Of a DNA stretch of 64,000 bases, positions 22,693-22,974 are shown piece after piece. The notes under the pieces are model-generated. The model was not told the DNA's origin, ran no database searches, and saw only the letters and a list, made by a program, of their open reading frames with translations. This DNA comes from Paraburkholderia agricolaris (GTDB taxonomy: Bacteria > Pseudomonadota > Gammaproteobacteria > Burkholderiales > Burkholderiaceae): positions 4,216,001-4,280,000 of the forward strand of contig NZ_QPER01000001.1 of assembly GCF_009455635.1 (NCBI RefSeq), in the 5' to 3' direction. Every line of letters starts with the position of its first letter. The first letter of the stretch is position 1. Made by a program: the position numbers and the translations under genes.

Positions 22693-22857
22693 ACTTGCAG
22701 GAAAATACGAGCTCAAGGCTCAGTCAACTGTTCGGGTTAGAAGGATGAAAAAGGATAGTCGCTCAAGCTTCTCTGCGGGCTCGAAACCCGGTAGGCAGAC
22801 GAACTGACTGTCCCTGTGACGACAACTGATCGGGTCGGCGTCACAGAAGGGAATATA
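22693..22857 (-). ncRNA. Candidate IS110 bridge RNA
   Basis: Lies directly 5' of the transposase gene, where IS110-group bridge RNAs are encoded; ends are approximate. It shows an 8-bp hairpin near the element end (CTGTGACG/CGTCACAG, 22814-22821 with 22839-22846), then a hairpin with stems 22772-22776/22795-22799 and 22776-22779/22787-22790. The left strand of the second hairpin carries TGCCTAC (22797-22791), identical to the flanking target; the right strand carries GAGAAGC (22773-22767), complementary to the other flank GCTTTTC with one G-T wobble. The donor-binding loop was not identified. Confidence 0.6.
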
Positions 22858-22863
22858 CAAGTA

Positions 22864-22974
22864 GGCAAAAGAAAGCGGCTTTACACCGCTAGCTCATAAG
22901 CGGGTCCCCCGCGCAGCCACGGTAGTGGTGCATCTGGAATCTGTCGCCTCGCACATTCAGCGTCAGTGACAAAG
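22864..22974. repeat. Inner left arm of the composite inverted repeat
   Basis: About 110 bp matching the reverse complement of 23315-23424. The first 81 bp (to 22944) are nearly identical, differing at a few positions; the last 30 bp match imperfectly. It includes the block AGCGGGTCCCCCGCGC, itself partly palindromic. Confidence 0.85.

Follow-up and report, generated by a model that had tools for sequence, protein, structure and literature searches.

The window, the whole stretch of 64,000 nucleotides analysed here, contains an intact IS110-family insertion sequence on the minus strand. It comprises a recombinase gene and, upstream of it, a non-coding left end in which a bridge RNA is proposed to lie.

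21593..22861, minus strand: insertion sequence of the IS110 family, the coordinates including a single CT core; its junctions are common to 6/6 copies, and the core is assigned from relatives
21736..22680, minus strand: DEDD/Ser recombinase gene (ATG 22680-22678), with Pfam matches to DEDD_Tnp_IS110 and Transposase_20 and PDB matches to ISCro4 and IS621
22681..22861, minus strand: left end, the proposed bridge RNA region, drawn from an alignment of 15 left ends and from guide covariation

The recombinase reading frame spans 21736-22716 (minus strand), in which ATG 22680 is the likely start and a TTG at 22716 provides a longer alternative. Both Pfam domains exceed the cut-off, and the protein has the composition of the IS110 group, a DEDD RuvC-like domain together with a Transposase_20 domain harboring the catalytic Ser. 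Just two PDB sequences match it: the ISCro4 recombinase (9t56, E 1.9e-39), which is the closest solved sequence and is likened here by protein sequence alone, and the more distantly related IS621 protein (E 4.1e-35). In the alignment with both, residues D24, E68, D110, D113 and S248 of the window protein correspond to D11, E60, D102, D105 and S241 of IS621, which are reported to be essential there (PMC11208158). From the coordinates, the left end (181 nt up to the ATG) is longer than the right end (143 nt past the stop). Membership of the IS1111 group, in which the RNA region lies past the gene within a long right end, was rejected, because here the guides are located upstream of the gene and the left end is the longer one. 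The host genome holds six full copies of the element, 98-100% identical.

The target repeat and the CT core

All six full copies are inserted into the same motif, TTGCCTA-CT-T(T/C)TCTTTGC, which forms one arm of a palindromic repeat. In the window, the two flanks and the core are arranged as follows.

22862..22950, minus strand: left target flank, the palindromic-repeat arm ending in TTGCCTA; the repeat is matched at many places in the genome
22860..22861, minus strand: CT core at the left junction, from the junctions of the own-genome copies and the flanks of relatives
21591..21592, minus strand: CT core at the right junction, from the same two sources
21573..21590, minus strand: right target flank TTTCTTTGCGGCAGGCGG, in which the palindrome arm continues, from a sequence check and the own-copy junctions

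A sequence-only reading of this locus, made earlier, had chosen the junction by comparison with the other repeat arm, and had proposed looking at the flanks of further copies. These flanks remove that caveat: 6/6 own copies have TTGCCTACTT|GTATATT at their left junction and GGTTGCTT|(T/C)TCTTTGC at their right one, and uninterrupted copies of the motif exist in the genome, where the clean join is seen. The arms of the palindrome read GCCTACTT(T/C)TCTTTGC and, on the opposite strand, ACCTACTT(T/C)TCTTTGC. With up to one mismatch, GCCTACTTTTCTTTGC occurs 148 times in the genome, a count that takes in both arms, versus once for the reversed control. The repeat was found in 11/11 genomes of the genus tested, at very different copy numbers, and most of these 11 genomes hold empty target sites, 17 to 306 per genome (exact GCCTACTTTTCTTTGC or related).

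The junctions of the window element have CTT in common, which is compatible with a core of either CT or TT. The TT core suggested earlier proves to be one base off, since the flanks of relatives with other targets have only CT in common (for example ...CCAT-CT-TGTATC and ...GTTG-CT-CATTA in L024). The core is therefore CT, as in IS621, and it is found at both junctions, as expected of the IS110 group.

The repeat is present in the window at 22862-22950 and 23345-23421, and its motif recurs at 19904-19918. Often the repeat consists of two arms facing away from each other, many of them ~360-380 bp apart, so the element may target the terminus of a larger repeat unit. In addition, two other transposase-bearing insertions (rve-type; ~19923-21572 and ~23442-24711) occupy the loop of this palindrome, one per arm of this repeat unit, and similar insertions in the palindrome loop are seen in four relatives (L045, L047, L091 and L100). 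The palindrome seems to be a preferred insertion site for several types of IS. The genome has one match to a Y1_Tnp gene, the type associated with REP sequences (L107, G000:C1:4425901-4426191); the fetched stretch around it lacks the repeat core, so no link between Y1_Tnp and the target repeat was seen there.

Target guides and their covariation with the flanks

Two segments of the left end correspond to the two flanks, and a third position faces the donor.

22792..22797, minus strand: left target guide TGCCTA, identical to the flank 22867-22862; it covaries with the flanks, more weakly than the right guide
22768..22774, minus strand: right target guide, AGAGA plus an AG that pairs with the CT core; it pairs TTTCT (21590-21586) with one G-T wobble, and covaries with the flanks
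22767, minus strand: handshake position C, pairing donor base G21593; complementary in 26/30 elements scored, many of which are close relatives

The strings and coordinates of the sequence-only reading are exact: TGCCTAC (22797-22791) is identical to the flank TGCCTAC (22867-22861), and GAGAAGC (22773-22767), quoted against GCTTTTC (21593-21587), lies 17 nt from it. C22791, next to the left guide, also equals the C of the core. The proposal that GAGAAGC is the right target guide is retained in a modified form, as the guide comprises AGAGA plus AG (22774-22768), while C22767 pairs donor base G21593. The G of GCTTTTC is the last base of the donor, and thus fits a 'handshake' pair rather than target recognition. 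Among the relatives this pair changes to T-A in L025 and L055 and to A-T in L053, and is lacking in L028, L030, L056 and L058. The hairpin layout of the guides likewise stands, the hairpin itself being part of a larger target-binding loop that has GGACAGTC/GACTATCC as its closing stem.

The joint match had been called unlikely by chance, in line with our finding that, given the flanks, both matches in this layout appear in 2/20,000 dinucleotide-preserving shuffles of the left end (the left 7-mer alone in 166, the seven right pairs with wobble allowed in 3,222). Every own-genome copy lies in one repeat family, as would be expected if the recombinase protein alone recognised the palindromic repeat and the left-end matches had arisen by chance or as remnants of previous insertions. 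For this reason the own-genome copies by themselves do not discriminate between recognition by protein and by RNA. Relatives with other targets were drawn from 200 genomes of the family (11 with a match, own genome included), 144 genomes of the genus (20, own included) and genome contigs (25 loci).

The right guide was scored by comparing the five bases that precede an AG in the left end with the five that follow the core, and the best AG was taken alike for own and swapped guide-flank pairs; the AG anchor was chosen after reading the sequences, so this is a test in a form fixed after inspection. Twelve relatives with distinct right flanks reach 59/60 points (permutation mean 37.6, maximum 53), and 15 elements reach 74/75 (mean 47.0, maximum 63), scores attained by 0/200,000 permutations in either case. 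Scored with six bases, the guide gives 78/90, again matched by 0/200,000 permutations. In most rows, as judged by eye, the chosen AG occupies the equivalent position, immediately 3' of the small hairpin. Left out of the 15 were elements whose right end (L023, L039, L046/L072, L049/L074, L057, L059, L079, L085), left end (L026, L029, L031, L051, L078, L080, L087) or both ends (L027, L060-L062) were not recognised, and near-duplicates or elements with the same target (L001-L006 from the own genome, close genus relatives, L053, L056, L063, L077, L096-L098); L033 and L035 were also left out of the right-guide set. Scored after the main test, L053, L056, L063, L078 and L096-L098 have 5/5 pairs and L077 has 4/5. 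L025 likewise has 4/5 pairs at the right guide. No clear guide was recognised by eye in L031.

The covariation of the left guide is weaker. For 16 elements the observed score was reached by 0, 6 and 3 of 100,000 permutations with 5, 6 and 7 nt, respectively; the left flank of L022 fits no guide in this test, and matches are poor in L081, L075 and the rhizobial rows L052, L054 and L058. An unanchored search for 8-nt guides gave weaker results (10 of 100,000 for the left and 716 of 100,000 for the right guide). The arrangement is that of a bridge RNA, with a left guide for the bottom strand and a right guide for the top strand, both covarying with the targets, the left one with exceptions.

The concerted change of guides and flanks in relatives with other targets supports the IS621-type bridge-RNA reading put forward earlier, and that the guides choose the target is strongly supported by these comparisons. 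The refuting observation named with that reading, further copies at unrelated sites, was looked for in the own genome and did not occur, as 6/6 copies share the one motif. Recognition by the protein alone also finds room in the differing sequence contexts of the two palindrome arms, because of which a bias between arms is by itself no proof of guiding. The rarity of the joint match among shuffled left ends and the change of guides with flanks across 12 distinct right flanks nevertheless speak against it, and we regard it as very improbable.

The proposed left-end RNA and the predicted mechanism

Beyond the guides, the left end contains conserved stems and candidate donor guides, and the two ends together carry promoter-like boxes.

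22816..22844, minus strand: 5' stem-loop of the RNA, with two-sided changes in 7/10 consensus pairs
22806..22813, minus strand: 5' arm of the stem that closes the target-binding loop; the best 8-bp helix has 7-8/8 pairs in 15/15 left ends
22753..22760, minus strand: 3' arm of this stem, from the same helix search
22725..22731, minus strand: candidate left donor guide ACAGTTG, read by eye against donor ACGGTTG (21599-21593; 6/7, one mismatch)
22694..22697, minus strand: candidate right donor guide CAAG, read by eye as complementary to CTTG (22861-22858)
22852..22857, minus strand: -10-like box TATATT in the left end, part of the junction promoter pattern
21606..21611, minus strand: -35-like box TTGACT of the right end; joining the ends puts it 17 bp from the -10-like box

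In the consensus fold of the 15 aligned left ends (MAFFT/RNAalifold), two-sided changes are found in 10/31 pairs, 7 of which belong to the 10-bp 5' stem-loop. The closing stem was missed by this alignment because of gaps, and the best 8-bp helix was therefore sought in each sequence, a procedure that favours finding a helix. In the window copy the stem (22813-22806 / 22760-22753) has 7/8 pairs, and among the 15 left ends the helix occurs in two main versions, GGACAGTC/GACTGTCC and GGAAGCGG/CCGCTTCC. The single-sequence fold of the RNA region is not exceptional (z -1.41), and Rfam at the gathering threshold matched only a tRNA in the whole window. The joined ends read TTGACT-17-TATATT, and a similar arrangement is present in 19/19 elements under a permissive pattern that describes the motif only. 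A promoter rebuilt at the junction of the joined ends has been reported for IS621 (PMC11208160, PMC11208158). A distant branch of relatives (L075, L076, L089, L096-L098), with recombinases 44-48% identical, seems to have a left end ~280-290 nt in length ahead of the gene, with an additional 5' part, versus ~145 nt (to the alignment start) in the window branch.

We consider it very probable, from the sequence comparisons above, that the element is an autonomous insertion sequence of the IS110 group with a bridge RNA encoded in its left end, and that the guides of this RNA direct the DEDD/Ser recombinase to the repeat arm. By analogy with IS621, the element would circularise, and its joined ends would form the sigma-70-like promoter from which the bridge RNA is transcribed. 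The RNA would bind the recombinase, and in its target-binding loop TGCCTA would pair with the bottom strand and AGAGA plus AG with the top strand, steering the protein to TTGCCTA-CT-T(T/C)TCTTTGC, one arm of the abundant palindromic repeat. The circle would then be inserted by strand exchange at CT through the DEDD/Ser active site, with TTGCCTACTTTTCTTTGC as the predicted recombination site of the element. The same analogy suggests that the RNA is expressed and the element active.

Its position directly upstream of the recombinase gene would also suit an RNA that mainly regulates recombinase expression and is not a guide, and ISPpu9, another element in REP sequences, is described as having small RNAs that regulate its transposase (PMC8450116). 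Regulation predicts neither the guide-flank covariation nor the handshake complementarity, and as the main role of the RNA it is highly unlikely; regulating and guiding could coexist.

The window element shares with IS621 of E. coli, as described in PMC11208160 and PMC11208158, the IS110 group, the CT core, an RNA region in the left end ahead of the gene, target guides for both sides, a promoter motif at the junction, insertion into palindromic genomic repeats and the aligned essential residues. It differs in its host repeat and guides, and its right guide covers five bases or more past the core, whereas the right target guide (RTG) of IS621 is given in these accounts as four bases including the core. 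By description it also resembles ISPpu9, ISPpu10, ISPa11 and ISRm19, IS110-family elements of other hosts and other repeats, whose counted copies were reported in REP sequences in 7/7, 7/7, 6/6 and 4/4 cases, respectively (PMC1525189). Earlier publications already describe bridge RNAs, how these covary with their targets and the preference of IS110 elements for REP sequences (PMC11208160, PMC11208158, PMC11187229, PMC1525189). The element is well supported as a new example of the recently discovered bridge-RNA elements of the IS621/ISCro4 type, not as a new kind of system. No paper on it was among the literature matches listed, in a library lacking preprints and the majority of subscription journals; the thousands of orthologues that PMC11208160 describes as analysed may already include it. 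It provides a clean multi-copy addition to these elements, with guides that can be read against the flanks from raw sequence, in a genus whose genomes are rich in empty allelic copies of the target. With many such targets per genome, the in-cell rules of pairing (wobble, mismatch, arm choice and handshake) become readable from nature.

Guide alleles and arm choice within the genus

Within the genus, the right guides are mostly GAGAAG or GAAAAG and the repeat alleles CTTCTC or CTTTTC. Over five bases of the right guide, 37/41 copies in ten genomes show full Watson-Crick pairing, three have one G-T wobble (L001, L002, L068) and one has a mismatch (L006, A-C, with guide GAAAAG beside CTTCTC). Over six bases of the left guide, 28/41 copies are identical to the flank, five differ by wobble-type changes only (L040-L042, L044, L048) and eight have one true mismatch (five in G296, two in G295, one in G285).

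GC-type and ACCTAC arms are about equally common, and 39/41 insertions lie in GC-type arms, the better-matching ones, where 19.3 are expected. The P value of 4e-11 assumes independent insertions and is optimistic; with one vote per genome it becomes 4.6e-4. The two insertions in ACCTAC arms (L042, L048) both need a G-T pair in the left guide. The 41 copies come from ten genomes and exclude the second G277 copy (no left end) as well as the single copies of P. tagetis and P. elongata, both of which lie in the GC arm. The choice of arm agrees with guiding, short of proof.

In Burkholderia sp. OK233 (G302), with guide GAGAAG, 7/7 insertions are at CTTCTC, while the empty sites with GCYYAC arms comprise 46 CTTTTC and one CTTCTC. 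The corresponding P value of 3e-7 (six GC-arm copies) treats the insertions as independent and is optimistic, as they form one lineage. In G296 5/5 insertions are at CTTCTC, with four CTTTTC and six CTTCTC among the empty GCCTAC sites (P 0.15, not significant alone). In the own genome (G000), CTTTTC and CTTCTC hold two and two GAGAAG copies and 47 and 26 empty sites (P 0.46, not significant alone). G235, G299, G277, G295 and G285 have zero empty GCCTACTTCTC sites and are therefore uninformative on allele choice.

GCTTAC stands in both guide and flank in P. elongata, and TTTGCTTA in both in G228. We tentatively suggest, as a possibility we hold to be somewhat doubtful, that within one genus this family of IS follows single-base alleles of a palindromic host repeat: changes of the guides, including GAGAAG/GAAAAG in the right guide, would re-aim the element between repeat alleles and palindrome arms, and rG-dT/rU-dG wobbles would make up about half of the imperfect guide-target pairings. 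If true, the genus would hold a natural record of bridge-RNA mismatch rules and of re-targeting in wild genomes.

The two guide alleles coexist in the own genome, where two of the six copies, L005 (G000:C2:2431062-2432436) and L006 (G000:C1:2586047-2587415), carry GAAAAG instead of GAGAAG. In L006 the left context TCTTTT is combined with CTTCTC, as is the case at 0/26 empty CTTCTC sites. These mixed flanks suggest a later recombination, and the A-C mismatch of L006 perhaps arose in this way, after insertion.
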